Source: Sporosarcina oncorhynchi (GTDB taxonomy: Bacteria; Bacillota; Bacilli; Bacillales_A; Planococcaceae). Taken from it: a DNA stretch of 64,000 bases. How positions within the stretch are numbered: the first letter of the stretch is position 1; the number at the start of each line of letters is the position of its first letter. A program made the position numbers and the translations under genes. Where the stretch lies: NCBI RefSeq assembly GCF_033304615.1, contig NZ_CP129118.1:244001-308000 (forward strand), in the 5' to 3' direction. The notes beneath the pieces were generated by a model. The model saw only the letters and a program-made list of their open reading frames with translations, was not told where the DNA came from and made no database searches. This document shows positions 16,521 to 53,285 of this stretch, one piece after another.

Positions 16521-16639
16521 AGTCGGTGGTAAACGGTCGAGAGTCGGTGGTAAAGTCGCCCGAGTCGGTGGTAAAGTACAGAAAGTCGGTGGTAAAGTAC
16601 AGAAAGTCGGTGGTAAACGCCTCCGAGTCGGTGGTAACC
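16521..16639 (+). repeat. 21-bp repeat array a (core AGTCGGTGGTAAA, 6 units)
   Basis: Cores start at 16521, 16542, 16563, 16584, 16605 and 16626, exactly 21 bp apart. The 8-bp parts between cores differ (CGGTCGAG, GTCGCCCG, GTACAGAA twice, CGCCTCCG). The last unit ends GTGGTAACCAC, a palindrome. It sits between the 52-bp array and the DUF4139 gene. Confidence 0.95.
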
Positions 16640-16786
16640 ACATTCGCCTGCTGCCAATCGACGCCAAACACAAAAAAAATCGCATGCCCACTAGCTTTAT
16701 TTTCAAAACAAGAGGGAATAGCGTATATACATACCTTAAATGGAGAGCGTAGAAGTAGCCGTTAAACTATTGAGGAGGTTTACGCC

Positions 16787-18070
16787 ATGGCGACACGCAT
16801 AACTACATCACAGAAGACGTCTTGTTCACTTACTGTGTATAATGACGGGTTCGCTTTAGTGAAAGATACCCGAACTATTCCACAGATTCAGTCGGGGGAA
16901 CGGATTCAATTTCTTGGGGTAGCAAGGAGGTTGGAGGCGAATTCCGTGATTATCGAGGGGATGAATGTAGCGGAGTTTGTGTTTGAATATGATCTGATGG
17001 ATGAATTGCGGTTGTATGAAAAATACTTGGGCAAGCAGCTTGTCATGTATGATGCGTATACGAAAGTGAGTAAGCCGTACACGCTTTTACGTGCGAGTGG
17101 TCCGATTGTGCTGCAGGACACGGAGACGAATGAAATCGTCATGAATCCGAAAGGGGAGTTACGGTTTCCCGAAACTGACGAAGGGTTCCATGCGGAGCCT
17201 ACGCTTGTCTGGCAGGTGGCGGAGCAGTTGAAAGAGCAAGTTTGCGTTTCGTATTTGACGGGCGGTGTTTCGTGGGAAGCGGATTACGTCATATCGATGC
17301 ATGGTGATCGTTTCGATATGTCTGGTTGGCTTGCGATGAGCAACTATTCAGGCGTGTCTTTTCAAGACGCAAAATTGCGTTTGATATCCGGCAAGTTAAG
17401 CAAGGCGGGCAATGAAAATGATGAAAAGAGCAAAGAGTTGTCGCAAGGCGAGTCGAAAGAAACCGATGCGTTTTCAGATTTCCATACGTACACATTCCCG
17501 CGTTCGATTGACTTAGAAGACAAGCAGACGAAACAGCTGCGTTTATTGTCAGCTATGAATTCAAAAGCAAGAATGATTTACGAAATTAATGAACAGACAG
17601 CCAATCCGGACATTTACATCGAATTCGATAATACGGCCGAAAATGGACTTGGCATTCCATTGCCTGCGGGCGTATTTAAAATGTATAGGACGAATCCGAA
17701 TGACGAAAGTGCAGAGTTTATCGGCGAATATCGCATCAAACATACCGAAGCAGGCGAGAAGGTCCGGTTAAAGTCGGGTGAAGCTTGTGATATTAAAGTG
17801 ACAACCAAAAAGTCGGGTAAGTATAAGGAAGGCGGTTATGAGTACACCGAATATGAGTATGCCATTTGCAACACGAAAGGCGTGCCTGTTGAAGCCGTCA
17901 TTCGCCAGAAAGTACCCGGCCACTTATGGACAGTCGATGAATCATCGCATGAATGGGAAAAGAAGCGAGACAAAATCCTTCTGCCGATTCATGTGCCTGT
18001 CGATCAGGAAGAAACAGTGAAATTCACAATCCGTCATGATCGCTCTGCGAGAAGGACGATTGGGTTTTGA
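16787..18070 (+). CDS. DUF4139 domain-containing protein
   Basis: The 427-residue protein has no signal peptide or membrane segment. The C-terminal half resembles DUF4139 (SYLTGGVSWEADYVISM, the LRLISGKL segment, FDNTAENGLGIPLPAGVFKMYR, and a final beta-rich domain). The N-terminal part (TVYNDGFALVKDTRTI) is the usual beginning in Bacillales members. The function of the family is not established. AGGAGGTTT precedes the ATG at good spacing. The gene stands alone between the repeat arrays and a convergent chemoreceptor gene. Confidence 0.8.
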   Translation: MATRITTSQKTSCSLTVYNDGFALVKDTRTIPQIQSGERIQFLGVARRLEANSVIIEGMNVAEFVFEYDLMDELRLYEKYLGKQLVMYDAYTKVSKPYTLLRASGPIVLQDTETNEIVMNPKGELRFPETDEGFHAEPTLVWQVAEQLKEQVCVSYLTGGVSWEADYVISMHGDRFDMSGWLAMSNYSGVSFQDAKLRLISGKLSKAGNENDEKSKELSQGESKETDAFSDFHTYTFPRSIDLEDKQTKQLRLLSAMNSKARMIYEINEQTANPDIYIEFDNTAENGLGIPLPAGVFKMYRTNPNDESAEFIGEYRIKHTEAGEKVRLKSGEACDIKVTTKKSGKYKEGGYEYTEYEYAICNTKGVPVEAVIRQKVPGHLWTVDESSHEWEKKRDKILLPIHVPVDQEETVKFTIRHDRSARRTIGF

Positions 18071-18111
18071 ATGAATGCTGCAAGATTACAACTGTGAAAT
18101 TCACAAAAAAG

Positions 18112-18152
18112 AATCTCGTCGAAAGGCTATTTGCCTTATGACGAGATTTTTT
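18112..18152. terminator. Bidirectional terminator
   Basis: AATCTCGTC / GACGAGATT stem (9 bp), 19-base loop, T-run on the plus strand and A-run before the stem. It serves both the DUF4139 gene and the convergent chemoreceptor gene. Confidence 0.8.
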
Positions 18153-18155
18153 AAT

Positions 18156-19871
18156 TTACTGTCCCTCATTAGTCATGTGATCGATTAATGAATTCAATAA
18201 TGAAAGCACTTCGGCTGAAGCTTGTTCAATGTGCTGTAAATCTAATTCGGCTTCGCTGATAAAGCCGTTCTGATAATGTTCGGCCGCTTTCTTGGCGTAA
18301 ACATGTACTGTTTCATGATGCTTATCAAGTTGTTTGAACTCCGGTAATTGGCCAAATCGTTCCGTTGTCCGTTGGTCGAAATACCATTTTCCGAGGCGGC
18401 ATTCCGTGTGGGCAGCGACATCTCCCGGATAGACCTCTTCAAGTCCAAGGAACATATTATAAATTTTCCATTTCCAAAGGATATGATCCGCTTTGGATAA
18501 TTGGAGAAGGGCGATGGAAGACAGTTCCGTATTGCTGTCTTTTACGACGCTCAATCTAAAGCGGTCGATTTCACGGCTCAATTCATAAATGGAGGAAGAC
18601 GTACTTTCTCCCAAAGATCTGATGTCATTCTGCAAATCGGTAATGCCGACCATCCGGTTTGCCACTTCATCGATGGCTGAAGCTTGCTGTTTCGAAATGG
18701 CAGCGGTATTTCCTACGTCCATATTGATGTCTTCCATTTCCTTTACAATGGAATTGATCAGTGGCAAGGATGTTTGAGCTTCAGACGTCGCTTTTGAAAG
18801 GATAACAGTCGTTTCTTCAATGGATATTGACACGTCGTTTGAATAACTCTTTAAATAATGGACGTTGTCCGAAATATCGCTGAGTGCGGAAACGGTGTTT
18901 TCGGCTAATTTTCGTACCTCCTGCGCGACGACCGAAAACCCTTTGCCGTGCTCGCCTGCCCTGGCGGCTTCGATGGAGGCATTCAATGCCAGAAGATTCG
19001 TTTGTGCTGCGATATCGTTAATGAGACCGGCAACATTTTCAATCGCATCAACGCGTTGTTGCAAGGAAGAAAATGTTTGGACGATAGTCTTGAACCGATC
19101 CTCTGTTTTAAAAATCTCTTCAAGCGCTTTTTCGATTGTCTGTTTGCTATGTATGGCATAGTTTACAGAATCCGTCGTTCTCTCTGCTATGCGGGAAGAC
19201 GATAGGGAAACTTCAGTGATCGAAGCAGTGATTTCCTCTGTAGCTGCAGAAGTTGTATGGATTTCCTCAGATTGTTTATCCAAACTGTAGATCAGGTCTT
19301 TCATGTACATGATTTTAGCGTTCGAATCAATTAGAGAAGAGATTTCCGTAATAACTTGGTCCATCGTTTTTTCACTCATCACTTCTGTCAGCAACTGCTG
19401 TTCAAGATTTCCTGCGGACTGGAGCGATTGGATCAAATTAAAAGACTTTGATAGTTTAAAGCTTCTTTGTTTCATCAGTTGTGTTGTTACGTAGAAGAAG
19501 AATTTATTGAAGAATGCAACGGTTTTACCCGCTTCAAACCGTTCTGAACGAAGCAACGCATAGAACGCCATCGACTGATTGAAATAATGCTCATCTCGAT
19601 TTTGATTGAAAAAAGAATGTATGTATTGATCGATGGTAGTTCGCTGAATAGGTTGTCCACCAACAGGAGTGATATCCAACAAGTTGTGGTAGAAAGTATC
19701 TTCGATGGTTGGATTAAGTGGTTGAAGCAGTTGATGAATTTTTCTTAAGTCGTTTATGTCATTTTGACGGATATTGTGATAAGCCAATGTTTCGTTCATA
19801 CGGCCTTCTATTACAATATCTGTGTCGCTTTCAAAATGGTCTGTAGCTGTTCTTGTTTTTAAATGTATCAT
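18156..19871 (-). CDS. Soluble globin-domain chemoreceptor with C-terminal CZB domain
   Basis: This 571-residue protein has no membrane segments. Residues about 20-180 resemble the protoglobin sensor of HemAT. The MCP signalling domain follows ([39 protein letters not shown] near 295-335). The C-terminus is a CZB-type zinc-binding domain ([15 protein letters not shown], and [16 protein letters not shown]). It should act in the cytoplasm on CheA/CheW, sensing a gas or redox/zinc state. In the segment where HemAT has its proximal haem His I read [10 protein letters not shown], with Tyr104 there, so haem binding is uncertain. The start is ATG 19871. Confidence 0.85.
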
Positions 19872-20063
19872 ACATAAGCCTCCAATAGATCTAGTTGAAA
19901 TAAGTATAACGTTCTGGATTACAGAAAAGAAGGTATTAAGTCAAATGTCATTTGTATAATCTATGTTGTATGTCATTAGACATAATCATTGACGTTATCA
20001 ACATGTGGACAACTTCAATTCATTTTTCAGAAGATATAAACAGTTTACCGGTATTATCCACGC

Positions 20064-20107
20064 TTTGCGGTGCATAACTATGCAAATCGAATGTTATGCA
20101 CCGCAAA
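20064..20107. repeat. Perfect 15-bp inverted repeat
   Basis: TTTGCGGTGCATAAC (20064-20078) is exactly complementary to 20093-20107, with a 14-base spacer. No T-run follows on either strand, so it is not a standard terminator. It is the main feature of the 340-base region between the chemoreceptor (-) and DedA (+) genes and may be an operator or RNA structure. Confidence 0.8.
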
Positions 20108-20214
20108 ATCCATTCATACTCTATACTATTCACACGTACACTCTTCATAACTATAGAAACTAGAAAGCAGATTGCATCGTCCTGTTTTTGAAGCTTACAA
20201 TAAAGGAGCGTTCA

Positions 20215-20826
20215 GTGGATAATTGGATTATGGAGTTCATCGGAGAACATGGTTATTTTGGTGTCTGTTTGCTGTTGCTTGTGGAAAACGTGTTCCCGCC
20301 GATTCCTTCTGAAGTCATATTGACGTTCAGTGGTTTTGTCACAACATTTTCGCTGATGACAAGGACAGGTGTCATCATTGCCGCAACGGTAGGCTCGGTT
20401 GTTGGCGCGATGATTCTATATAGTGTCGGGTTGGCGGTCGATGTTGAGAAGCTCGAGCGGTTGATTGAAAAACGTGGTCGTTGGTTGCGAGTGACGAAGA
20501 AGGATCTTCGCAGGGCAGAGCGATGGTTCGAAAAGTACGGGCCATGGACTGTATTCTTTTGTCGCTTGGTACCGCTCCTTCGTAGTTTGATTTCTGTTCC
20601 AGCGGGCATGGCACATATGAATTTCTTGTTGTTTCTTGTGCTCACAACACTTGGTAGCTTCATTTGGAATGCAATTCTTGTTACAATAGGGTTTGCAGTC
20701 GGTGAAAATTGGGAATCGATTATCTGGTATATGGATATCTATTCCACATTCGTTTATATTTTATTAGCAAGTAGTTGTGTCGCGGTTTTTATAGGTTATT
20801 ACCGCTTCCATAGAAAGAGGGCATAG
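20215..20826 (+). CDS. DedA-family membrane protein
   Basis: This 203-residue protein has about five membrane helices and DedA hallmarks: FPPIPSEVILTFSG, the amphipathic FEKYGPWTVFFCRLVPLLRSLISVPAG with two Arg, and GSFIWNAILVTIG. Some members (UptA type) carry undecaprenyl phosphate across the membrane. That fits this gene, because uppP follows six bases after its stop. I chose GTG 20215 behind AAGGAG rather than a TTG nine codons earlier with no ribosome site. Whether it is the UptA orthologue cannot be decided here. Confidence 0.88.
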   Translation: MDNWIMEFIGEHGYFGVCLLLLVENVFPPIPSEVILTFSGFVTTFSLMTRTGVIIAATVGSVVGAMILYSVGLAVDVEKLERLIEKRGRWLRVTKKDLRRAERWFEKYGPWTVFFCRLVPLLRSLISVPAGMAHMNFLLFLVLTTLGSFIWNAILVTIGFAVGENWESIIWYMDIYSTFVYILLASSCVAVFIGYYRFHRKRA

Positions 20827-20832
20827 GGAAAT

Positions 20833-21660
20833 ATGGAATTATTTGATTTGTTGAAGGCATTAATACTTGGTTTTGTAGAAGGGATGACGGAATTCGCTCC
20901 AGTCTCGTCAACAGGCCATCTCATTATCGTCGATGATATGTGGTTGAAAACAGAAGAGTTTCTAGGGAAGTATCCTGCAATCACTTTTAAAATCGTCATT
21001 CAGCTCGGTTCGATTCTAGCAGTTGTTTTCGTCTTCTGGAAACGTTTATTTAGTTTGGTCGGTCTATATAATATTGATGGTAAGAAAATGAACAATCGTT
21101 TTAATTTGTTGCATGTCATCGTTGGAATGTTGCCTGCCGTAATTCTTGGATTTGCGTTCAAAGACCTCATCGATGACTACCTATTTGGGATAGAAACTGT
21201 TATCGTTGCACTTGTAGCAGGTGCAATCTTAATGATTATTGCAGACAAATTCGGACCAAAAAGACCGAAAGTGCAGTCACTTGATCAGATTTCCTATCGA
21301 CAGGCATTTACTGTAGGACTCGTCCAATGTCTATCACTATGGCCTGGATTTTCACGTTCCGGTGCAACGATTTCAGGTGGTGTGCTATTCGGCATGAACC
21401 ACCGTACAGCGGCGGACTTCACTTTCATCATGGCCGTACCAATTATGATGGGTGCAAGCCTTGTATCGGTTATGAAGAACTGGGAATACATGTCGATGGA
21501 TCATATTTGGTTTTATGTCGTCGGCTTCTTGAGCGCATTCGTGTTCTCGCTCATTTCCATCCGTTTCTTCCTAAAACTGATTTCGAAAGTGAAATTAATG
21601 CCTTTTGCCATCTATCGAATTATTTTGGCGGTCATTTTAGCCGCAATTGTATTTTTATAA
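20833..21660 (+). CDS. uppP: Undecaprenyl-diphosphatase UppP (BacA)
   Basis: The 275-residue membrane protein carries the family motifs EGMTEFAPVSSTGHL (with the catalytic Glu and Ser) and PGFSRSGATISGG (with Arg and Ser), plus about eight helices. It dephosphorylates undecaprenyl diphosphate outside the membrane, recycling the carrier of peptidoglycan synthesis; overproduction gives bacitracin resistance. The immediate DedA neighbour suggests coupled dephosphorylation and flipping of the carrier. A terminator follows. Confidence 0.95.
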   Translation: MELFDLLKALILGFVEGMTEFAPVSSTGHLIIVDDMWLKTEEFLGKYPAITFKIVIQLGSILAVVFVFWKRLFSLVGLYNIDGKKMNNRFNLLHVIVGMLPAVILGFAFKDLIDDYLFGIETVIVALVAGAILMIIADKFGPKRPKVQSLDQISYRQAFTVGLVQCLSLWPGFSRSGATISGGVLFGMNHRTAADFTFIMAVPIMMGASLVSVMKNWEYMSMDHIWFYVVGFLSAFVFSLISIRFFLKLISKVKLMPFAIYRIILAVILAAIVFL

Positions 21661-21668
21661 TAAAACCT

Positions 21669-21704
21669 ACGACTCTTTCTAATGAAGGGTCGTTTTTTTA
21701 TTGC
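21669..21704 (+). terminator. Terminator of dedA-uppP
   Basis: ACGACTCTT pairs with AAGGGTCGT (one G-U pair), followed by seven T. Confidence 0.75.
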
Positions 21705-21799
21705 AAAGATCGTATGTGATGCACATCTCATTCAAATTATTCTCTCTGCAGCATTACTCAGTTACAATGAAAAAAACTGGCGCGTGATTAACTTGAAAG

Positions 21800-21957
21800 A
21801 AAAGCATTTATTAATGAAGAAGAGGATCGAAATGCACGTACGCATTTAAAAGGGAACTAGTAGTAACGCGGTTCACCTTTAAAGTGAAATAACGTCACAT
21901 TTAATTTGGATAACTACGGACAGCTGCCATACTGTCCGCTTTTATTTTTGAATCTAC
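21800..21957 (+). ncRNA. Possible degenerate, orphan T-box leader ending in a terminator
   Basis: The plus strand contains GAAGAAGAGGAT, then AGTAGTAACGCGG, which resembles the T-box sequence (GGTGGTACCGCG, about three mismatches), and ATAACGTCAC where T-boxes usually have TTCGTC. A real terminator stem follows (CGGACAG / CTGTCCG, then CTTTTATTTTT). No plus-strand gene follows: the next gene is the metallohydrolase on the other strand. The specifier stem is not recognisable. It may be a remnant of a lost aminoacyl-tRNA-controlled gene or a small RNA. The terminator is well supported, the T-box call is not. Confidence 0.3.
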
Positions 21958-22688
21958 ACTTCATAAACCTTCCCGACAACCGCCAATTCGGCAGGACTGG
22001 TATAGACGTTCGTTGCAGCATCTAAAATCATTTTCAAATCACCATGCAACGGCAGATGAGTCAACAGCAATTGCTTCGCACCAGCTAATTTCGCCAGTTT
22101 CCCCGCTTCACTGCCTGTCATGTGGCCAGGGGCTTTGCCAAGATGCTCTTCGTACAAATTCGCTTTGCTAATCAATAAATCTGTATCCTTTGCAAACAAG
22201 ACAAGTTCATCCCGCCATTCGGTGTCGGCCGTCAATGTGACAGAACGGCCATTTACAGTGAATCGCATCGCTAAGCAATAAGCTGGATGAATCGTTTCGC
22301 AAAATGTTACTTGAAAAGGTCCGATTTGGATAATATCTTTTTCCTGAATTGCCATGCCGACTGTCTGCTCTTTGTAGGAGAGCTTTTCAAAATTCTCTTT
22401 GTCCACGGTATGGGCGTAAATCGGCAAAGATGGCTGCGGTTTACCAAGATAGTAATTGATGAGCCTGCTATACTGCAAACTTCCGATATCCGCAATATGA
22501 TCTGCATGATAATGGCTTATTACGACCGCATCAAGCTGTTCAAGTTGAATATAATTTTGCAACGAGGAAAGCACTCCGCTTCCACAATCCACTAGACAAT
22601 GGAATCCGTCATGTTCAAGCAAAAAAGAAGAAGTTGCTCCATTCGCTTTAGGATACCCTCCCCATATACCGATCGGAATCACTTTCAT
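21954..22688 (-). CDS. MBL-fold metallohydrolase (RNase Z-like)
   Basis: The 244-residue protein has the metallo-beta-lactamase metal motif HYHADH (about residues 60-65), an upstream DCGSG, a TADTEW segment with Asp, and a final His in LLTHLPLHGD. Bacillales relatives (YhfI-like) are annotated as hydrolases of unknown substrate; true tRNase Z has extra exosite features that I do not see. The ATG follows GGAGGTGC. It is divergent from the glutaredoxin gene, and the intervening 90 bases hold the CsoR/CstR-like operator. Confidence 0.85.
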   Translation of the reverse strand: MKVIPIGIWGGYPKANGATSSFLLEHDGFHCLVDCGSGVLSSLQNYIQLEQLDAVVISHYHADHIADIGSLQYSRLINYYLGKPQPSLPIYAHTVDKENFEKLSYKEQTVGMAIQEKDIIQIGPFQVTFCETIHPAYCLAMRFTVNGRSVTLTADTEWRDELVLFAKDTDLLISKANLYEEHLGKAPGHMTGSEAGKLAKLAGAKQLLLTHLPLHGDLKMILDAATNVYTSPAELAVVGKVYEV

Positions 22689-22715
22689 ACGAACAGCACC
22701 TCCAGAACTAATTAA

Positions 22716-22744
22716 TTGAATGTATACCTGTGGGGGTATATAAT
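22716..22744 (+). promoter_or_regulatory. SigA-like promoter overlapped by a CsoR/CstR-like operator
   Basis: TTGAAT (22716-22721) and TATAAT (22739-22744) are 17 bp apart. The spacer contains TATACC-TGTG-GGGGTATA (22723-22740), which fits the ATACC-N4-GGGGGTAT type of inverted repeat recognised by the copper or persulfide sensors CsoR and CstR. A repressor here would block the glutaredoxin gene directly. The match is by eye; the cognate repressor is not in the window. Confidence 0.65.
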
Positions 22745-22776
22745 AAAATCAATACAATGAAAAAGGAGACATCATA

Positions 22777-23016
22777 ATGACAACAGCTACAGTATACACT
22801 ACAACAACTTGCCCATACTGCACAATGATGAAAGACTACCTCGACGAACAGAAAATTGCATACCGTGAAGTGAATGTACAGGAAGATAGACAGGCAGCTC
22901 AGGAGCTTGTCGACAGAACTGGACAGATGGGCGTTCCCCAAACAGAATTGAATGGGAATTGGATATTCGGATTTGACCCAGCAGCAGTACAAGCAGCATT
23001 ATCTGAGGATAACTAA
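22777..23016 (+). CDS. Glutaredoxin-like thiol protein (CPYC)
   Basis: The 79-residue protein is a minimal thioredoxin fold of the glutaredoxin / NrdH type: active site TCPYC (Cys 12 and 15), cis-Pro in MGVPQTELNG, and GFDPAAVQAAL at the end. It reduces disulfides or glutathione/bacillithiol mixed disulfides in the cytoplasm. AAAAGGAG precedes the ATG. Together with a 52-residue membrane protein it forms a small operon, apparently controlled by a CsoR/CstR-like repressor, which points to copper or reactive-sulfur stress. Confidence 0.88.
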   Translation: MTTATVYTTTTCPYCTMMKDYLDEQKIAYREVNVQEDRQAAQELVDRTGQMGVPQTELNGNWIFGFDPAAVQAALSEDN

Positions 23017-23017
23017 C

Positions 23018-23176
23018 ATGAAAAAACCTTCTCTTTTTAGCAAATCATGCTCGATCGGGACACCCGAATCGATGGAAGAGGAAATGAACAAACGCCTCTT
23101 CCCGAAGATATGCATGGGTCATGTGGGGTTGTTTTTGACAGGTGTATTTTTGGTGATTATGGAGTGGATGAATTAA
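23018..23176 (+). CDS. Small membrane protein in the glutaredoxin operon
   Basis: The 52-residue product starts one base after the glutaredoxin stop with TGAGG upstream. It has one hydrophobic helix (about residues 34-49, GHVGLFLTGVFLVIMEW) and two Cys (SKSCSIG and KICMGH). It is probably co-translated with the glutaredoxin. I know no family for it; a role as membrane partner is inference. Confidence 0.65.
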   Translation: MKKPSLFSKSCSIGTPESMEEEMNKRLFPKICMGHVGLFLTGVFLVIMEWMN

Positions 23177-23179
23177 GGG

Positions 23180-23222
23180 ATCCTTCATTGACGATTTGTT
23201 TACGTCAATGGAGGATTTTTTA
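23180..23222 (+). terminator. Terminator of the glutaredoxin operon
   Basis: ATCCTTCATTGACG pairs with CGTCAATGGAGGAT across a nine-base loop (one mismatch-like pair), followed by a run of seven T. Confidence 0.85.
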
Positions 23223-23380
23223 TTATGGAAAAATGATGAATCGATGGTGAAGCATAAGCTCAAGGGTTGTCAAATGCTTTTCTAATACTTTCCAACTCAA
23301 TAGTTTCAGCGAGTACTAGAAAACACAAAAAACGCTGAAATCCACTAGGGATTCGGCGTTTCTTTTGTAAATATATGGTC

Positions 23381-23500
23381 GAGCGGTGATGGAAAGTGAT
23401 TAAGCCGTGATAAATGCCATCTAAGCGGTGATAAAACCGGCTCGAGCGGTGATAGACAGCCCATAAGCAGTGATAGATCCACATCAAGCGGTGATAGCCC
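23381..23500 (+). repeat. 21-bp repeat array b (core AAGCGGTGATAGA, 6 units)
   Basis: Cores start at 23381, 23402, 23423, 23444, 23465 and 23486, exactly 21 bp apart. Units 2 and 5 carry single changes (AAGCCGTGATAA, AAGCAGTGATAG). It lies between convergent genes. The rest of the 320-base gap holds nothing else I recognise. Confidence 0.93.
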
Positions 23501-23545
23501 AATTTAACGTATGAATCTGGTCGGATAAACTACCATTATCGAATC

Positions 23546-23851
23546 CTATAAACCCGATTTCAATTCATTGATTAATTCCCCGAAAATCTTTTCATTCTCT
23601 GATATCATCCGATCGATTTGCTCGCCCATAGACTTTTGACTGGAATTCGGTTGACTTCGGGCATTCAGCCTAGTCATCTGAAGCTCTTTGTTCATAAGAA
23701 TATATAGAAGCAGCAAATTGATTGTTTTAGCGTCTAGATAGACAAAACTTTTTAATGCATTCTCATCCAAGTCAATTTCGCTCATCGGAAAGTTTTTGGT
23801 CAGCTCCTCGATAATCTTATGGAATGCTTCCTGTGTAAAATGACTAGTCAA
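23546..23851 (-). CDS. Conserved hypothetical protein, helical (101 aa)
   Basis: The 101-residue acidic protein has no membrane segment or Cys and looks helical throughout (NLLLLYILMNKELQMTRLNAR; GEQIDRMISENEKIFGELINEL). It starts at TTG 23851, overlapping the end of the upstream gene, behind AAGGAGAG. I do not recognise the family. It is the last gene of a three-gene minus-strand group that may encode spore-surface or envelope proteins; that link is only positional. Confidence 0.6.
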   Translation of the reverse strand: MTSHFTQEAFHKIIEELTKNFPMSEIDLDENALKSFVYLDAKTINLLLLYILMNKELQMTRLNARSQPNSSQKSMGEQIDRMISENEKIFGELINELKSGL

Positions 23852-23852
23852 T

Positions 23853-24422
23853 TCAAGGTCTCTCCTTTATTCGCATTGATCCGTTAATGTCGATGGAGTT
23901 GAGTGCAGGTATACCATTGGGAAACTGATTGCTGAAAAATAGAGCTGTCATGCTACCTGCATAAGTTTTAGAAGGTGACCATGTCAGCTGAAAATTAGTA
24001 AAAGACAATGTTTCACCAGGCCCTATCACTTCGTTTACAATGGGTTGCAAGTCAAACAAGAATTTGTCTGATGACTCATTGACACGTTGCCAGCCATTCG
24101 CCAACTTAGAGGAGAGAGTTGCTGCATTGCTTACAAACTTTCCGTGAAATGAAAAAGGTGCACCTTCGGATAGTGTAAACCGGATATGCGGGGTGGTAAG
24201 CGGAACCGTGCCGGTATTAAAGATATGATAAGAGCCGAGGCAAAAGCTTTCTTGCGAGACATCATGTGACAGCTGTAATGCATATGTAAAATAACTGATA
24301 CAGTCCGAACGATGTAACCTGGTGGATAGCGTTTTCCGCAGTTCAAGCAAGTGACCTTTCGTGGATTCGTGAAATCTATGTAGCTTATGGGTAATATCTT
24401 CAGTAGATGTGTGGATGTGCAC
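23853..24422 (-). CDS. Hypothetical beta-rich protein (189 aa, start uncertain)
   Basis: The N-terminal part is helical with many His (THKLHRFHESTKGHLLELRKTL). From about residue 60 it has a beta-sandwich-like pattern (FCLGSYHIFNTGTVPLTTPHIRFTLSEGAPFSFHGKF; IGPGETLSFTNFQLTW; YAGSMTALFFSNQFPNGIPALNSIDINGS). The frame remains open upstream, but that part contains a terminator stem, so I use GTG 24422; GAGGAGG lies unusually close (two bases), which leaves the start unsure. The neighbours encode Cys-rich proteins, so a structural, perhaps spore-surface, role is possible but not shown. Confidence 0.55.
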   Translation of the reverse strand: MHIHTSTEDITHKLHRFHESTKGHLLELRKTLSTRLHRSDCISYFTYALQLSHDVSQESFCLGSYHIFNTGTVPLTTPHIRFTLSEGAPFSFHGKFVSNAATLSSKLANGWQRVNESSDKFLFDLQPIVNEVIGPGETLSFTNFQLTWSPSKTYAGSMTALFFSNQFPNGIPALNSIDINGSMRIKERP

Positions 24423-24432
24423 AACCTCCTCA

Positions 24433-24468
24433 AAAAGTATAAAGAGAGAAAGCCGAAGCCTCTCTCTC
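24433..24468 (-). terminator. Terminator between two minus-strand genes
   Basis: On the minus strand GAGAGAGGC-TTCG-GCTTTCTCTC forms a stem with a stable tetraloop and one bulge, followed by TTTATACTTTTT. It separates the Cys-rich 220-residue gene from the gene after it. Confidence 0.65.
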
Positions 24469-24504
24469 CATGCTATGTTCTGACAAGTACAGTTAGTACG
24501 GTTT

Positions 24505-25167: not shown

Positions 25168-25339
25168 GAGTATAGTCACCTCCGTAATTTATTTGGCCTT
25201 GCATTCGTATCATATGTCGTAGAAAAGCCGCTATGTAGGCAAAGAAAAGGCTCGACTGCAACTCTTTCACGTTAAGTTTAGTGAGATGAGCAAGCTGTCC
25301 AGTAAAAGATGAATGAAGAGCTGTCAGATGGAGGAGGCG

Positions 25340-25912: not shown

Positions 25913-26002
25913 AAGTAGCTTCCTAGACGATAAACCGATAAATATCTGCCCGTCCTTCCTTGCGAATCTTGAATAAGATAGCGAAGAGGGGAGGTGTTTA
26001 GT

Positions 26003-26298: not shown

Positions 26299-26332
26299 GA
26301 CGTGAAAGCTTGTGAAAACCCATAATATGGGC

Positions 26333-26574
26333 AAGTGGTGATAGATTCGTTATGAGCGGTGATAGAAGGCCTATCAGCGGTGATAAAATACATTTAAGCG
26401 GTGATAGCCGATGGATCAGCGGTGATAGACTTTTTCAGGTCGATGAATCTTGGCGAGTCGGTGATAAAGTGTCAAGAAGCGGTGATAACAGGCCGAGAGT
26501 CGGTGATAAACTCACCCAAGTCGGTGATAACCTCGCCTAAGTCGGTGATAACACAGCAAGAGTCGGTGATAAAC
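26333..26574 (+). repeat. 21-bp repeat array c, grading between both core types (12 units)
   Basis: Cores start at 26333, 26354, 26375, 26396, 26417, then an 18-bp degenerate unit at 26438, then 26456, 26477, 26498, 26519, 26540 and 26561. The first five are the GCGGTGATAGA type; from 26456 most are the hybrid AGTCGGTGATAA. The period is 21 bp throughout except the one short unit. It lies between convergent genes. Confidence 0.93.
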
Positions 26575-37678: not shown

Positions 37679-37797
37679 AGTCGGTGGTAAAACTGTCCGA
37701 GTCGGTGGTAAAGTGTCGAAAGTCGGTGGTAAAGTGCTGAAAGTCGGTGGTAACCGCCAGAGAGTCGGTGGTAAACTCCTCCGAGTCGGTGGTAACG
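37679..37797 (+). repeat. 21-bp repeat array d (core AGTCGGTGGTAAA, 6 units)
   Basis: Cores start at 37679, 37700, 37721, 37742, 37763 and 37784, exactly 21 bp apart. The left flank GAAATTGACG is the same as at array e2. It lies between convergent genes. Confidence 0.95.
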
Positions 37798-41020: not shown

Positions 41021-41118
41021 TAGTGGTGATAGAGCGACGGTGAGCGGTGATTAAGAGCTTTCAAGCGGTGATAGAGTGTGCGGAAGCGGTGATAGACTTT
41101 GAAGAAGCGGTGATAACA
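41021..41118 (+). repeat. 21-bp repeat array e1 (GCGGTGATAGA type, 5 units)
   Basis: Cores start at 41021, 41042, 41063, 41084 and 41105, exactly 21 bp apart. This is the first of two arrays in a divergent intergenic region (osmoprotectant ATPase on the minus strand, bceR on the plus strand). From 40671 to 41020 the region is AT-rich and I recognise nothing else in it. Confidence 0.93.
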
Positions 41119-41184: not shown

Positions 41185-41325
41185 AGTCGGTGGTAATTCG
41201 CTTCAAGTCGGTGGTAAAGTCGTGCGAGTCGGTGGTAAGTCGCTTCAAGTCGGTGGTAAAGTCGTGCGAGTCGGTGGTAAATCGCTTCAAGTCGGTGGTA
41301 AAGTCCCCCGAGACGGTGGTAACCC
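41185..41325 (+). repeat. 21-bp repeat array e2 (AGTCGGTGGTAAA type, 7 units)
   Basis: Cores start at 41185, 41206, 41227, 41248, 41269, 41290 and 41311, exactly 21 bp apart. Variable parts alternate between TTCGCTTCA-like and GTCGTGCG-like, so pairs of units were copied together. The array ends 95 bases before the bceR start. Confidence 0.95.
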
Positions 41326-45953: not shown

Positions 45954-45981
45954 ACGGTGAAATGAAGTGCGGGAATGTGCG

Positions 45982-46100
45982 AGTAGGTGGTAAAGTCGGT
46001 AAAGGCGGTGGTAATCACCTGCGAGTCGGTGGTAAAGTCAGCCAAGTCGGTGGTAAATCGGTCAAAGTCGGTGGTAAAGTCGTCCGAGGCGGTGGTAAGC
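45982..46100 (+). repeat. 21-bp repeat array f (AGTCGGTGGTAAA type, 6 units)
   Basis: Cores start at 45982, 46003, 46024, 46045, 46066 and 46087, exactly 21 bp apart. It begins 29 bases after bceB, and the first plausible terminator is at 46255, so it is probably transcribed in the bceAB 3' UTR. Confidence 0.95.
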
Positions 46101-46254
46101 AAAGTAGCAGTGCTATCTCTGTGTTATCCTGCTAAAAGTGCTTGAACACTGTTTTGCACAGCAGCTCACTAGGAAAGAATCCTATCTTAATACGAATTCC
46201 ATTCCGGATTTAAAGGGGACTGAGTGTTGGGGAGAAGAAAAATAATAGCAGTAT

Positions 46255-46294
46255 AAACGATGGTGGGGCCTCCTTGGTCCTCCATCGTTTTTTG
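46255..46294 (+). terminator. Terminator downstream of bceAB and array f
   Basis: AAACGATGG pairs with CCATCGTTT, an inner GGCC/GGTCC part adds pairing, and TTTTTT follows. Confidence 0.75.
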
Positions 46295-46481
46295 TTGAGA
46301 TGAGTATTTTAAGTTCATTCACTTTCCGGTTTTGGACATAGTATTTGTTAATATCTTAGCAATTTGGAATTAATACCTAGTGAGTCTAAAGTAATTATAT
46401 TTAAATTACATATAAGTATATGTATCTATTGAGGAATCTGTTATACTAATCTAGTTGAAAATAAGTAGGAGGTATTACTAA

Positions 46482-48581
46482 TTGAAAAAACAAAGAAGCA
46501 TAGCCTGGAAGCTGTCCGGGCTTATAATCGGACTATTTCTCGTACTGTTTATTGCCTATACAGTCATTACGAACTCGATTCTATACGATAAAAGCGTGAC
46601 GGACGGGGAAGAGTATGCGATCGAGAACACGGAATTGAATGCCACGGTGCTTAGTGAACGGTTTAATAAGACAAATGAGATGTTGCGCACGACAAAACAT
46701 ATAGTGGAAACGTTGCAGGCACAAGGAAATTTGACGACAGATGAAATGATAGCAATCATTGAAAATAATTTGAAGAAAAATGAAGATGCTACCGGAATGG
46801 CTGCAATCTTCGAAAAAGGATCTATTCCGCTCACCCGGACAGATAGTAAGCTCATCGATTCATCGAAAAGATTCATTCCGTATCTTTATAAAGACGGATC
46901 GGATGTTGTAGTTGAAGGGTTGAGTGGGTATGAAGTTGCAGGTGAAGGGGATTGGTATTTAACTCCGAAAAGTGAGAAACGAGCAGTTCTGACAGAACCA
47001 TATACGTATAATGCAGGTGGGCAGTCGGTCTTAATGACGACGATTTCCGTTCCGCTCGTTACAGGGTCTGGCCAATTTTTCGGTGTCTTGACGACAGACA
47101 TTTCAATTGATTTCCTGAATGACCTCGTCACGACAATTAGCCCGGATGGTGGTTACGCGTCCGTCATTACAAATGGCGGGAATCTAACAGCGAATAGTTT
47201 GAAGGAAGAGATGAACGGCACAGATATGCGAAATTCAATCGATTGGGACAGCATGAAGTCACAGCTCGACCAGGGCAATGTCGGTACATTGTACGTCGAC
47301 TCCAAAAGCCTTGGTGAGCAGGCGTTCAATACATTCGCACCAATCAAGTTGGATACTATCGATGAAGTATGGAGTGTCCAAACGGTTCAGCCTAAATCGG
47401 AAATACTGTCGACATTTAATACACTACTATGGGTAACGATTATTGCAGCGGTCATCATGACAGTCGTCATGTCGGCAGCGACAGCAGTCTTTATCTTTAG
47501 ACTAATGAAACCCTTATCCTACTTGCAACGTTCAATCGAGCAGGCAGCAAAAGGGGATATGACAAGCTTAATTGATGAAAGACATATTAAAAATGATGAA
47601 ATCGGCGCAGTGTCTATTGCATATAATAATATGCTCCGCCAAACGAACGAGGCTATGAATGAAGTGCGTGCCTCTTCTACTGAATTGAATGACTCATCGA
47701 CACATGTGCATCAAGCGTTTGAAGAAATTGTAGCATCTAGCGAAGAAGTGTCACTTGCAACAAACGAAATTGCCCAAGGTGCATCTAAGCAATCCGAAGA
47801 TACGGAGGAAACAAGCAACAGCATCGCCGTACTGGCCGAACAGATTAACGCGTTATCCAGTCTAGCTGCCAGTATGGATAGATTGTCTGTTCAAACTGTT
47901 GAATCGACGGAAAAGGGAATGTCGGAAGTGCGGAATTTACGTGACCATAATGTAACTGCCAATGAAATGAATACGAAAGTTCAAGAACAGATGGATGCGT
48001 TGTCGACGAAAATCGAAGCGATCAATCAAGTAATTACATCCATTCAGGACATCACAGCGCAGACGAATCTGCTCGCGTTGAATGCGAGTATTGAAGCAGC
48101 GCGTGCAGGTGAACACGGCAAAGGCTTCGCAGTCGTTGCGGATGAAGTGCGTAAACTAGCGGAGCAATCAAGAGTGGAGACGGAAGTTATTCAAAAAACA
48201 GTTCATGAAATCATTGAAGAATCGAAACAGACCGTTGCTGTCGTCGAATCCAATGTGCAGTTGATGGAAGGGCAAAACGAATCTGTCACAGGTACGGAAT
48301 CTTCATTCATCCAAAATGTCGAGTTGACCGAGCAGATGAGCCAATCTATCAAAGAACTCACTGCTGAGCTTGCGGAAATGCTCACACACAAAGACCAAGT
48401 GATCGTATCCATCCAGAGCGTATCGGCCGTCTCTGAAGAAACCGCCGCTTCTGCAGAACAAGTGAGCGCGTCTTCAGTCGCTCAACAAAACGAATTGGAA
48501 CGCGTCGCGGATTCCACGACGCGTATGAAGAATATTGCCGGCGAATTGCAAAGCGTTGTAGAGCGTTTTAAATTGATTTAA
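46482..48581 (+). CDS. Membrane methyl-accepting chemotaxis protein with dCACHE sensor
   Basis: The 699-residue receptor has an N-terminal helix (about 9-31), an outside dCACHE-type domain (about 35-310: [42 protein letters not shown]), a second membrane helix (about 316-340), a HAMP domain and a signalling tip ([38 protein letters not shown] near 528-566). It starts at TTG 46482 behind AGGAGG. Ligand unknown. Its transcript appears to run through the repeat array that follows, up to the terminator at 49561. Confidence 0.92.
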
Positions 48582-48609
48582 CAAGGGGGGTTCGACGTTT
48601 ACTACGTTG

Positions 48610-49528
48610 CGTATCGAAACGTAACCCGGCCGCAACGAAACGTAGACGGCTCGTATCGAAACGTAACCCGGTCGCAACGAAACGTAGACGGCTCGTATCG
48701 AAACGTAACCCGGTCGTATCGAAAAGTAGCTACCGTATCGAAACGTAACCCGGTCGCAATGAAACGTAGACGGTTCGTATCGAAACGTAACTCGGTCGTA
48801 TCGAAAAGTAGCTGCCGTATCGAAACGTAACCCGGTCGCAACGAAACGTAGACGGCTCGTATCGAAACGTAACTCGGCCGTATCGAAAAGTAGCTGCCGT
48901 ATCGAAACATAACCCGGTCGCAACGAAACGTAGACGGTTCGTATCGAAACGTAACCCGGTCGTATCGAAAAGTAGCTGCCGTATCGAAGCGTAACCCGGT
49001 CGCAACGAAATGTAGACGTCTCGTATCGAAACGTAACTCGGTCGTATCGAAAAGTAGCTGCCGTATCGAAACGTAACCCGGTCGCAACGAAACGTATACG
49101 GTTCGTATCGAAACGTAACCCGGTCGCAACGAAACGTAGACGGCTCGTATCGAAACGTAACTCGGTCGTATCGAAAAGTAGCTGCCGTATCGAAACGTAA
49201 CCCGGTCGCAACGAAACGTAGACGGCTCGTATCGAAACGTAACTCGGTCGTATCGAAAAGTAGCTGCCGTATCGAAACGTAACTCGGCCGCAACGAAACG
49301 TAGACGGTTCGTATCGAAACGTAACCCGGTCGTATCGAAAAGTAGCTGCCGTATCGAAACGTAACCCGGTCGCAACGAAACGTAACTCGGCCGTATCGAA
49401 AAGTAGCTGCCGTATCGAAACGTAACCCGGTCGCAACGAAACGTAGACGGCTCGTATCGAAACGTAACTCGGTCGTATCGAATAGTAGCTGCCGTATCGA
49501 AACGTAACTCGGCCGCAACGAAACGTAA
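48610..49528 (+). repeat. Large tandem array with an 82-bp higher-order unit (21+21+21+19 bp subunits)
   Basis: About 44 subunits share a core like ATCGAAACGTA. Three types occur: A (21 bp, TATCGAAACGTAACCCGG), B (21 bp, CAACGAAACGTAGACGG) and C (19 bp, TATCGAAAAGTAGCTGC). They are mostly ordered A-B-A-C. C units start at 48715, 48797, 48879, 48961, 49043, 49167, 49249, 49331, 49392 and 49474, mostly 82 bp apart. It fills the gap between the chemoreceptor and argS genes. All three minus-strand frames are open through it because the unit has no stop on that strand. Confidence 0.95.
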
Positions 49529-49560
49529 CACCACCATCCCGTCATGCAATCCCAAAATAG

Positions 49561-49595
49561 ATCGTCCCGCCGATTATGGAGGGACGATTTTTTTA
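49561..49595 (+). terminator. Terminator after the 82-bp array
   Basis: ATCGTCCC / GGGACGAT stem of 8 bp with 12-base loop and seven T. It is the first plus-strand terminator after the chemoreceptor gene. Confidence 0.8.
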
Positions 49596-51257
49596 CATTT
49601 CTTTAGGCGCCTTCATGCCGAGTAAACGCATGGATTCTGTTAATACAATGGAAACAGACTGAATGAGTGCTACACGGTAAGGAAGATTCACATGATCCGT
49701 CAGCACTTTGATATTCCCATAAAAAGAATTGAATGCTTGCGCAAGGTCAATAGCATATTTCGCGATGATTGAGGGGTCTAAGTCATCTGTAGCGCGTTTG
49801 ACTGCGTTCGGGAACTGTTCCAGCAACTTAATGGTTTCCCATTCATAGTCATTCACTTCATCGATTTCTATGGGACCGATTGAACCTGATTTACGTAAGA
49901 CGGAATGAGCTCGGGCATTCGTATACTGAATATAAGGCCCCGTTTCACCTTCCACTTGCAGCATCGTCTCTAAATTGAATTCGATATCATGCTTGCGGTG
50001 TTGTTTGAGGTCGCTGAATAAAATTGCACCGACACCGACTGCTTCCGCTACTTCTTTTTGGTTGGCGAGCGTTGGATTCTTTTCTGCAATATTCCGTTGT
50101 GCAAGTTCAATCGCTTCTGTTAGCACTTGCTCAAGCAAGACAATCTTTCCTTTACGCGTCGACATCTTCTTGCCACCTTGCAAAATCAGTCCGAACGGCA
50201 CATGCTGCATATCATCGGACCATGTATGGCCCATCTTTCTAAGCACTTGCTTCACTTGTGTGAAATGAAGGCTTTGTTCATTCCCAACGACATAAATCGA
50301 TTTCACAAAGTCATACGTGTTTTTACGGTCCAACGCGGCAGTCAAATCGCGCGTCGCATATAATGTAGCCCCATCGGATTTTCTAATGAGGCAAGGAGGG
50401 ATGTTCTCGCCTAAATCGACGACTTGTGCCCCATCCGATTCTTCAAGCAGTCCTTTGTCCATCAGCTCTTGCACGATAGGCATCATCTTGTCGTTGTAGT
50501 ATGCCTCGCCGTTATACGAATCGAACTCCACACCAAGCAAGTCGTAAATCCGTTGAAACTCCTTCAACGACTCGGTCTTAAACCATGTCCATAGGTTCAG
50601 CGCATCTGCGTCGCCATCTTCGAGTGCCTTGAATGCAGCGCGACCTTTGTCGTTTAATGAAGGATCCTGTTCGGCCTCATCATGGAAACGAATATAAAGC
50701 TTCAATAACGTCTCAATAGGCGCATGGCGGACGTCCTGTTCATTCCCCCACAAGCGATAAGCAGTGAGCAACTTTCCAAACTGCGTGCCCCAGTCACCGA
50801 TGTAATTAATTTTCACAGGTTTAAAACCGCTTTTCTCGAGCAATAAAGCAATCGAATTACCGATAACCGTGGAGCGCAGATGTCCCATAGAAAAAGGCTT
50901 TGCAATATTGGGCGATGATAAGTCAATTGTCACAACACCATCATTGCCTTCATTCGAAGATCCGTACGAATTACCCTGTTCAATAATCGTACGTAGTATG
51001 TCACTTGAAATAGCTGTTCGATTCAAGAAGATGTTGACATAACCATTGACGGCTTCCGCTTTCAGGATGGATGGATGTGCTACAGAAGCGGCGATATCTT
51101 CAGCGATGATCGCAGGAGATTTCCGGAGAATCTTTGCAAATTGAAAACAAGGCATTGCGAAATCACCTAAATGCGCATATACCGGGCGCTCCAATGTGTG
51201 CGCCTCGAGTTGTATCGGACTGGCGGCTTGCAATGCTTGCAGAATACCATTTTTCAT
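49593..51257 (-). CDS. argS: Arginyl-tRNA synthetase
   Basis: The 554-residue class I synthetase has the HIGH-type motif in SSPNIAKPFSMGHLRST (MGHL), IGDWGTQFGKL, the KMSK-like segment KKMSTRKGKIVLLE, a C-terminal anticodon-binding domain (GPYIQYTNARAHSVLRK) and the ending LGMKAPKEM. It charges tRNA-Arg. I use ATG 51257, for which AAAGGGG is correctly spaced; an ATG two codons earlier is too close. A T-box in the leader has an Arg specifier codon. Confidence 0.95.
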   Translation of the reverse strand: MKNGILQALQAASPIQLEAHTLERPVYAHLGDFAMPCFQFAKILRKSPAIIAEDIAASVAHPSILKAEAVNGYVNIFLNRTAISSDILRTIIEQGNSYGSSNEGNDGVVTIDLSSPNIAKPFSMGHLRSTVIGNSIALLLEKSGFKPVKINYIGDWGTQFGKLLTAYRLWGNEQDVRHAPIETLLKLYIRFHDEAEQDPSLNDKGRAAFKALEDGDADALNLWTWFKTESLKEFQRIYDLLGVEFDSYNGEAYYNDKMMPIVQELMDKGLLEESDGAQVVDLGENIPPCLIRKSDGATLYATRDLTAALDRKNTYDFVKSIYVVGNEQSLHFTQVKQVLRKMGHTWSDDMQHVPFGLILQGGKKMSTRKGKIVLLEQVLTEAIELAQRNIAEKNPTLANQKEVAEAVGVGAILFSDLKQHRKHDIEFNLETMLQVEGETGPYIQYTNARAHSVLRKSGSIGPIEIDEVNDYEWETIKLLEQFPNAVKRATDDLDPSIIAKYAIDLAQAFNSFYGNIKVLTDHVNLPYRVALIQSVSIVLTESMRLLGMKAPKEM

Positions 51258-51279
51258 TTCCATAACCCCTTTTTTGGCA

Positions 51280-51540
51280 AAATAAAAAGCCTTCATCTCG
51301 TATAATGAGACGAAAGCTTGTTCCGCGGTACCACTCAAATTGCCCAGCATCTATGGCGGGCCCCTTTCTCCTAACGGCGAGACACCGGCTTCTCCTACTG
51401 AATTCAGAAAAGCATCTTCGAAGTGCGTTTCACAATCTTCATTCACCAGGCTTCCACCACCCCCGGCTCGCTTCGGAAATAAAAGACCATTACTCTCTTC
51501 GTCATTGATATTGTAGTTGAATGTACCAAAACGTGGAAGG
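51280..51540 (-). promoter_or_regulatory. T-box riboswitch of argS
   Basis: On the minus strand the leader has the stem I elements (GAAGAGAGTAATGG; AGCGAGCCGGGGGTGG), the specifier region GTGAAACGCACTTC with CGC (Arg), the T-box sequence AGTGGTACCGCGG, and a terminator (AGCTTTCGTCTC pairing with GAGATGAAGGCT, then TTTTTA). Uncharged tRNA-Arg should favour antitermination and argS expression. Confidence 0.92.
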
Positions 51541-51630
51541 CGTGTCAATAGGCGAAGAAGGGAAGAGTTTGTAACTTTGACTCAAATCATCCGTCTAACT
51601 TGATAGAGAGCTTGGATGAGGAGGATGAAA

Positions 51631-52803
51631 ATGAAACGAACATTACTCGCAACTGCTTTAGGCGTTGCATTAATTGTAAGTGGATGTGGAACAGGAGCAG
51701 GAGGAACGACTGGAACAGATGTGGGCGAAGAGGATGGATGGAAGACGATTAAGACGATTAGTGGCCGCGAAATTATAGCTGAACTCAAACAGACAGTGAA
51801 AGAGTCCCCTGAACGAGAGAAGCTGGCGGCTGAACAAGTGGATAGCGAGGATTATAAGGGGGGATTATTCGGAGATCCGTCGCCTGAACTGGCGGAAGAT
51901 ATGGCGGTGCAAGCCATTGAAGGACCTATCGCGCTTGAAGCACTTGGCAAAGTATACGGGGAGAATGGTTTTAGTGAAGAAGGTGTGATTTTCTTTGAAA
52001 ACCAGCGGAATGGAGCAGAACAGTCAGGTATTTGGTTTGGTGTGAAAAACCCGGACGAACGTCTTAACGAATTGCTTGCAGAGCTTCAACCGAAAGTGGA
52101 TGTAGGAGAAATCCTCGCCGCACCAATCTATATTTTCCGCAGCGCGCACACGGAAAAAGAGCTGAATGACATCCAAGACGAAGTGGCAGTGGCGTTGAAA
52201 GGAATGCACGCGAAGCGCGGATCCTATTCACTTAGCGTTGATGTGAAATCAGGCGAAATCGAACTGAATCATGATTTTCTAAAGGCTGAACAGCAAAAAG
52301 AATTAGAAGAGAAGTTCCCGGACTACACATTCCACTTTGAACAGGATGGAAGATTAGTAGCAGAACCAGGCGACTCTAGCATCATTCATCCGGAAAATAC
52401 ATTTACGGATATACCAGTGAATGATGGTGGCTTCATCTTGTCGGTAGAGGCAGGGAGGATTTTTGTAGCTGGCGGCAATGAAAGCGCAATTTATTATTCG
52501 TTCGAAGAAGCAGAAAAGCTGAAAGTCGGGCAACGTGTGAAAGTCGAGGCGTCGGGGATGATTATGGAATCGTACCCAGGGCAGGGGACTGCGAAATACG
52601 TGGAAATTCTACCCGATTACAAACCTGTCGGTGCTGAACTATCCGAATCGCAGGCTTTCGTGAAAGCAATGGAAAAGTTTACAGCAGAATCGTCTGGCGA
52701 AATGGATTTCATGGTCGTTAAAGAGGTCTCTTTTGATGAGAAAGAAGTGAAATGGATTTTCACGCTTGATGAAGATAGGAAAGTGGAAATTGAGGATAAA
52801 TGA
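51631..52803 (+). CDS. DUF3221-containing lipoprotein
   Basis: The 390-residue lipoprotein has a signal peptide and lipobox (LIVSGCG, Cys about 19). An N-terminal domain of unknown family follows. The region from about residue 245 (NDGGFILSVEAGRIFVAG, FEEAEKLKVGQRVKVEASG) matches the DUF3221 type of Bacillales lipoproteins (YobA-like). It should sit on the outer face of the membrane. ATG 51631 has GAGGAGG upstream; an ATG five codons earlier lies in that site. Role unknown. Confidence 0.75.
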   Translation: MKRTLLATALGVALIVSGCGTGAGGTTGTDVGEEDGWKTIKTISGREIIAELKQTVKESPEREKLAAEQVDSEDYKGGLFGDPSPELAEDMAVQAIEGPIALEALGKVYGENGFSEEGVIFFENQRNGAEQSGIWFGVKNPDERLNELLAELQPKVDVGEILAAPIYIFRSAHTEKELNDIQDEVAVALKGMHAKRGSYSLSVDVKSGEIELNHDFLKAEQQKELEEKFPDYTFHFEQDGRLVAEPGDSSIIHPENTFTDIPVNDGGFILSVEAGRIFVAGGNESAIYYSFEEAEKLKVGQRVKVEASGMIMESYPGQGTAKYVEILPDYKPVGAELSESQAFVKAMEKFTAESSGEMDFMVVKEVSFDEKEVKWIFTLDEDRKVEIEDK

Positions 52804-52821
52804 AATTTAGCAAGTGAAATT

Positions 52822-52857
52822 GCAACCGCCCTTGACTATGGGGCGGTTGTTTTTTGA
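52822..52857 (+). terminator. Terminator of the lipoprotein gene
   Basis: CAACCGCCC pairs with GGGCGGTTG, then TTTTTT. Part of it is duplicated at 52995-53020. Confidence 0.8.
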
Positions 52858-52882
52858 GGTTAATATCTCTTAATAATTGGGC

Positions 52883-52978
52883 GAGCGGTGATAGGATGTG
52901 TTCAAGCGGTGATAAAGATGCATAAGCGGTGATAAAGGGTGCAAAAGCGGTGATAACTCTCCGTAAGGCGGTGATAGG
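52883..52978 (+). repeat. 21-bp repeat array g (GCGGTGATAGA type, 5 units)
   Basis: Cores start at 52883, 52904, 52924, 52945 and 52966; one interval is 20 bp, the rest 21. Preceded by the end of the lipoprotein terminator. Confidence 0.9.
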
Positions 52979-52994
52979 ATATAGGACAACTGCA

Positions 52995-53059
52995 CTTGAC
53001 TATGGGGCGGTTGTTTTTAAGGTTAATGTCTCCTAATAATTGGGCGAGCGGTGATAGAC
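52995..53059 (+). repeat. Duplicated segment: terminator half plus array start
   Basis: CTTGACTATGGGGCGGTTG, a GGTTAAT-TCT-TAATAATTGG stretch and GCGAGCGGTGATAG occur at 52831-52895 and again here, with a few changes. The second copy leads into array h1. Confidence 0.85.
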
Positions 53060-53142
53060 TGACGTTGAGCGGTGATAGAATGTGTTTAAGCGGTGATAGA
53101 GGGTGCACGAGCGGTGATAGAACTTGTTCAAGCGGTGATGGA
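53046..53142 (+). repeat. 21-bp repeat array h1 (GCGGTGATAGA type, 5 units)
   Basis: Cores start at 53046, 53067, 53088, 53109 and 53130, exactly 21 bp apart. Confidence 0.95.
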
Positions 53143-53166
53143 AAAGGACGGCCGTGAAAAATGGCG

Positions 53167-53285
53167 AGTCGGTGGTAATTCCACTAGAGTCGGTGGTAAA
53201 GTCGTCAAAGTCGGTGGTAAACACACCTGAATCGGTGGTAATCCCGCCAGAGTCAGTGGTAATCTCACAAAAGTCGGTGGTAACC
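53167..53285 (+). repeat. 21-bp repeat array h2 (AGTCGGTGGTAAA type, 6 units)
   Basis: Cores start at 53167, 53188, 53209, 53230, 53251 and 53272, exactly 21 bp apart. The last unit ends GGTGGTAACCACC, a perfect palindrome. From 53286 to about 53735 I recognise only a degenerate unit (GGATTGGTGATAAAAT, 53385-53400). Confidence 0.95.

Follow-up and report, generated by a model that had tools for sequence, protein, structure and literature searches.

The stretch studied here, called the window below, is a 64,000-nucleotide segment (positions 244001-308000) of the single-contig 3.48-Mb genome of Sporosarcina oncorhynchi. Its ArgS protein has its closest named relatives in Sporosarcina, with S. 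quadrami at the top (86 percent) of a list that may omit records of this genome. Seven intergenic regions of the window contain tandem arrays of 21-bp units, each unit made of a conserved core and a variable spacer. We counted 63 units in 11 blocks of 5-7 units, always on the + strand; stray single matches at 23239 and past 53284 are excluded from this count. A-type blocks carry the core AGTCGGTGGTAAA, with AGTCGGTGATAAA instead in block 26456, and B-type blocks carry RAGCGGTGATARA. The blocks are the following:

16521-16638, + strand: A-type block, 6 units
23381-23498, + strand: B-type block, 6 units
26333-26429, + strand: B-type block, 5 units
26456-26573, + strand: A-type block of the AGTCGGTGATAA form, 6 units
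37679-37796, + strand: A-type block, 6 units
41021-41117, + strand: B-type block, 5 units
41185-41323, + strand: A-type block, 7 units
45982-46099, + strand: A-type block, 6 units
52883-52978, + strand: B-type block, 5 units, with one 20-bp spacing
53046-53142, + strand: B-type block, 5 units, a local copy of block 52883 including its upstream hairpin (164-bp period)
53167-53284, + strand: A-type block, 6 units

Within blocks, the spacing is 21 bp in 51 of 52 cases and 20 bp in the remaining one, in agreement with a preliminary description of this DNA in which nearly all units started 21 bp apart. The seven regions and the common plus-strand orientation given there also hold for all 11 blocks, but the number of blocks had been put at nine and that of units at about 58, and of the proposed range of 5-12 units per block only the minimum stands: the maximum is 7, and 12 is reached only by summing adjacent blocks. 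The gaps between adjacent blocks, measured core to core, are 39, 80, 80 and 37 bp, none divisible by 21. The window holds 54 matches to AGTCGGTGGTAAA and 50 to AAGCGGTGATAGA, while shuffles give means of 15.4 (maximum 28) and 16.6 (maximum 25), respectively. In all three window regions carrying both types, B lies 5' of A, an order also seen upstream of argS in four related loci (L058, L060, L061 and L062). An A+T-rich leader ending approximately in TTGGCG tends to precede the blocks, and a hairpin with a T-run, as judged by eye, stands just before some of them. Spacers are partly copied within block 41185-41323, an instance of the occasional copying that had been described. The neighbouring genes show no common function among the 19 window proteins scanned.

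Several known types of repeat could be set aside. Clustered regularly interspaced short palindromic repeats (CRISPR) have unique spacers of about 20-70 bp; the 8-bp variable part and the 21-bp period rule out such an array. Cas genes beside the array are usual for CRISPR but not obligatory; no Cas family was found among the 19 scanned proteins. Plasmid replication iterons lie on plasmids beside rep genes, whereas our arrays are chromosomal and gave no match to plasmid records with two queries. Chi sites are frequent, dispersed, single words; every match to AGTCGGTGGTAAA in the window (up to 2 mismatches) falls inside the arrays. Nor do the arrays match a known structured RNA family: the window has only two Rfam matches, a T-box leader of argS (51303-51514) and, ahead of a ribonucleotide reductase gene, a cobalamin riboswitch (53723-53901), and both are outside the arrays. 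A link to viral contigs came down to two matches of a three-unit pattern, both falling in repeats that encode part of an unrelated phage protein.

The period is equally strict beyond the window. Among exact neighbouring cores lying 12-30 bp apart in Sporosarcina stretches, 451 of 463 are separated by 21 bp, the other 12 by 20 (5 cases), 19 (4), 22 (2) or 26 bp (1). In a profile of 258 units, the information content is 0.05-0.24 bits at each of the eight spacer positions and reaches 2 bits in the core, where YGGTG is fixed by the selection rule. Many arrays sit at orthologous loci across Sporosarcina genomes. When arrays orthologous by place were compared, in a register chosen to favour the spacers, core and spacer identities were, for example, 0.91 and 0.60 between the window and S. 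quadrami, and 0.98 and 0.68 between S. thermotolerans and S. highlanderae. Block size varies little, with 4-7 units in 47 of the 53 blocks listed at argS-related loci, under a chaining rule that lets in weak terminal units. One position is particularly constant: across 15 loci examined, an array follows the 3' end of the DUF3221 gene in all eight that have this gene. Gene and 3' array were duplicated together in two of the loci, L062 and L113 (at about 6.6-9.7 kb). Support for the copying process postulated in the preliminary description is slight, since arrays recur at orthologous loci and the copying we observed is local, twice including a neighbouring gene.

Could the arrays be neutral or selfish minisatellites, generated by slippage or unequal recombination, with an asymmetry of replication favouring the emergence or survival of one orientation? 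Copied spacers and local duplications agree with this view, as do the longer arrays of near-identical pairs in genome G204 and the change of word at a constant position 3' of argS described below. However, whole-unit copying would keep spacers too, yet it is the cores that are more alike; moreover, the spacing almost never drifts and the range of block sizes is narrow. We consider minisatellites unlikely, though worth keeping in mind.

The arrays are distributed over both arms of the chromosome. A two-unit pattern allowing up to 3 mismatches found 80 forward and 72 reverse matches in the S. oncorhynchi genome, against 0 and 1 for a reversed-pattern control. The strand counts are nearly equal because array orientation flips at the origin. 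The latter lies around coordinate 0: dnaN and recF occupy 461-3113, and the contig ends with yidC- and rnpA-like genes (names assigned by reading the genes); the nearest arrays on either side are at 3.42 Mb (-) and 178.7 kb (+). At E<=0.001, a sequence-only search model of four units, built from 38 stretches, matched 60 times in this genome and 55 times in S. thermotolerans (CP125968.1); G036 gave 42 matches and G032 gave 43. In S. thermotolerans, the - strand carries most arrays left of dnaN, which lies at 486-487 kb, and the + strand those on its right; the nearest are at 313.7 kb (-) and 558.7 kb (+), and an array at 263.7 kb runs opposite to the rule of its arm. The dnaN gene of this complete genome (G061, 486090-487222) reads as two pieces, each with an internal stop, from a sequencing error or a frameshift.

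In the S. oncorhynchi, S. thermotolerans and G036 stretches, 51 of the 60 clusters with at least 3 units are oriented as the leading strand and 9 are not (the terminus being taken, in all polarity counts, as the point opposite the origin). Grouped through reciprocal best hits of neighbouring genes, these clusters form 43 loci: 37 are leading wherever present, 6 are lagging and none is mixed (p=1.6e-6 against 0.5). For G036, the arm to which contig 1 belongs is an assumption, and dropping the two loci known only there leaves 35 of 41 leading. Three-unit clusters are included in these figures; one of them (G000, 180675) overlaps a 397-aa open reading frame and may be a chance match. The check on orientation relative to the origin that had been proposed at the outset thus came out in favour of polarity, with a flip at the origin in both S. 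oncorhynchi and S. thermotolerans.

Array orientation might simply reflect that of the genes. For clusters of at least 4 units with both neighbours present, a count that excludes 3-unit clusters, 46 of 55 are leading versus 68 of 110 neighbouring gene sides (Fisher p=0.004). Arrays are leading in 8 of 10 clusters with two lagging neighbours, in 18 of 23 with two leading ones and in 20 of 22 with mixed ones, some of the clusters counted being orthologous to one another. Array orientation therefore follows the arm more than the genes, and the remark that blocks keep their direction whatever the flanking genes extends, by and large, to the genome scale. In the argS neighbourhood, where 11 of 26 related loci have arrays, all 42 arrays are oriented relative to argS as in the window, but they share synteny and hence are not independent.

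Distance to the origin is also biased. Clusters having four or more units, or several blocks, were counted in the two single-contig genomes, one-block 3-unit clusters being left aside: 17 of 18 in one and 16 of 21 in the other are no more than 500 kb from the origin, against expectations of 29 and 27 percent. The blocks are intergenic; most lie on one or the other arm at 57-477 kb from the origin, and most point away from it.

IS200/IS605 elements insert in one orientation relative to the replication fork. The polarity of the arrays with respect to the fork and their many positions would fit a small mobile element with the same habit, of which the arrays would be copies or remnants. We nevertheless find this very improbable: beyond the units and a short leader, no conserved sequence was noticed in the blocks read, the arrays often occupy orthologous loci, and no similar DNA was found by BLAST in 72,556 plasmid records (queried with one array and a 631-bp composite) or in 50,697 phage records (queried with the composite alone).

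An RNA-level element, either terminating antisense transcription or binding a protein within transcripts, would fit the hairpin-plus-T-run terminators that appear, by eye, before some arrays. Folding of individual arrays gave mixed z-scores, a few of them better than for shuffles (z -2.8, -2.8 and -2.1). In a separate random sample of 30, drawn from arrays with unbroken 21-bp spacing and 4 or more units, the minus strand shows a small shift (mean z -0.47, standard error of the mean, s.e.m., 0.13). On the + strand, however, the mean z is -0.01 (s.e.m. 0.20) relative to shuffled spacers. Array orientation also does not follow the genes, it is not evident what a two-turn period would do in RNA, and the arrays in the window have no Rfam match. 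We regard an RNA-level role as improbable.

How far do these arrays extend among relatives? The core pair pattern occurs in 11 of 61 genomes, all within the 37 of the genus. Across the family, model matches (E<=1e-7) were found in at least 12 of 151 genomes and 4 of 19 genera, S. oncorhynchi included, a lower bound given the stricter filters of this search. The core has dialects in related genera: the fetched stretches show CGGTGATAAA spaced by 20-21 bp in genus g28, and CGCTGATAAA spaced by about 21 bp in genera g31 and g38. One of the 20 fetched relative stretches, L180, showed no such array in the script output. Genome G204 (g38) contains 365 pairs, 311 forward and 54 reverse, and, among the matches listed (for the pairs, the first 100 of 365), 9 of 11 clusters fit the polarity. 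On the main contig of Fictibacillus BK138, 7 of 9 clusters fit. Arrays of 20-21 bp made of words such as GGATCATAAA, AGGAACGTAAA or GGCCCAATAAA are present in Fictibacillus and in records named Rossellomorea or Bacillus. Based on a common TAAA end, our guess is that they may be homologous to the Sporosarcina arrays. Three 20-bp arrays of Fictibacillus (L084 17270, L096 17152 and L116 18086) each start with TTTGTCGAAAA, which we take to resemble a Spo0A box.

We propose that the phased, polar arrays are bound cooperatively by a putative host protein, probably acting in the origin domain, a reading whose chances we judge to be evenly balanced. Each block would be a polar array of about 5-7 sites, with a 13-bp core RRKYGGTGRTAAM followed by 8 nearly free bases. 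Cores are two helical turns apart and therefore face one side of the DNA. This spacing, together with the one-sided core, the nearly free spacers, the narrow number of sites and the lack of + strand RNA structure, points to a DNA-bound protein contacting neighbouring copies. From the polarity and the clustering near the origin, a part in replicating or segregating the origin domain suggests itself. The putative protein would bind the cores cooperatively and could form a directional filament or a wrapped complex, as ParR does on plasmid-centromere iterons; the set of arrays could then show where the origin domain lies and which way each arm runs. Its role could be chromosome organisation or segregation, perhaps during sporulation. 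Phasing, conserved cores, polarity along the arms, clustering near the origin, inheritance at orthologous loci and dialects in related genera are observed facts, from which the protein, its cooperative binding and the role are inferred.

The type II centromere parC with ParR (plasmids pSK41 and R1) and the type III centromere tubC with TubR have polar iterons arranged in tandem, as a single block or several, which are wrapped and to which binding is cooperative (PMC5016525). Our arrays share the polar tandem iterons, but parC is one plasmid locus beside a par operon, whereas here dozens of blocks are chromosomal and no par genes were found among the 19 window proteins scanned. ParR on parC is the closest mechanical model. 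The closest positional model is provided by the RefZ-binding motifs (RBMs) of Bacillus, which lie on the chromosome close to the origin, on either side of it, at positions relative to oriC that are conserved within a genus (PMC6657595). Our arrays have a similar location, but RBMs are five nearly palindromic single motifs, while the arrays are polar, tandem and present at many more loci, and their core is not a palindrome. Architecture imparting sequences (AIMS) and FtsK-orienting polar sequences (KOPS) are octamers with leading-strand polarity that grow more abundant towards the terminus (PMC5993296). This strand bias is common to our arrays (37/43 loci), but AIMS are ruled out: 33 of 39 clusters are within 500 kb of the origin, without terminus enrichment, and the cores are phased 13-bp words instead of octamers. 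The tandem direct repeats of Borgs occupy many intergenic regions of a two-replichore genome and also occur inside genes, with perfect, unique words in units of at most 54 bp (PMC9605863); here a single degenerate word is combined with free spacers. The TAACTGA repeats of Beggiatoaceae resemble our arrays as genome-wide intergenic direct repeats of one short word; these heptamers mostly stand just upstream of start codons, with a proposed role in translation (PMC4679880). No earlier description of the arrays was found in the open-access literature by title or beginning of abstract; most subscription journals are outside this scope, so one may exist.

The initial suggestion of landing pads for an oligomerising protein, or of a directional signal, gains from the 451/463 spacing, the higher likeness of cores than spacers, and the polarity. 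Several observations weigh against it and against our own proposal. Six of the 43 loci run against the rule. One of these, with three blocks beside ABC-2 permease genes (L133 10660-11122, at G000 243 kb; L158; L141), is reversed in three species; its marker gene is in the G036 and G061 stretches, not in the G032 stretch. The proportion of 37/43 gives only p=0.06 under a null of 0.75, and the loci are not numerous, some of them sharing descent. Downstream of argS, the word changes while place and period persist. Unrelated units already have high core identity, and the core/spacer comparison is therefore no proof of unit-by-unit orthology. The core pair is found in just 11 of 37 genus genomes and is thus not essential to the genus. 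Polarity varies in other genera, being weak or absent in G164 (3/7 clusters) and Fictibacillus phosphorivorans (0/5), and no origin clustering was seen in Fictibacillus BK138. Finally, no binding protein was found, a search aimed at ParR or RefZ not having been made.

A broader version of the proposal, which we advance tentatively and regard as somewhat doubtful, is a centromere-like chromosomal address system: dozens of phased polar iteron arrays would label the origin domain and give the arms a direction, read by a putative filament-forming protein whose specificity for DNA would have drifted among genera, giving the dialects CGGTGATAA, CGGTGGTAA, CGCTGATAA and perhaps GGATCATAA. If read as polar binding platforms, the arrays would add an origin-proximal, directional, helically phased class to the chromosome-organising sites, distinct from the nearly palindromic RBMs and the terminus-enriched AIMS. 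The core could serve as direct bait for the putative protein, and the dialects of related genera as a natural test of co-evolution.

Two other tandem arrays are present in the window:

15849-16464: tandem array of 12 regular 52-bp units, just upstream of A block 16521
48610-49527, + strand: C array, with another core, CGAAACGTA; 43 CGAA(N)GTA cores, with spacings of 21 (31 times) and 19 bp (9 times)

The C array is placed between a methyl-accepting chemotaxis protein gene and argS. Its word recurs near 3.085 Mb, where it lies on the - strand (L053), and S. quadrami has it as well (L057). On the 3' side of argS, the window and S. quadrami carry CGAAACGTA, L059 and L061 carry the core GGTGATAA, and S. 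luteola NBRC 105378 has a 21-bp array of another word. In the latter strain (L119), 21-bp arrays of quite different words lie at 11815-12076 and 2734-2850, one of the two being the array immediately 3' of argS.

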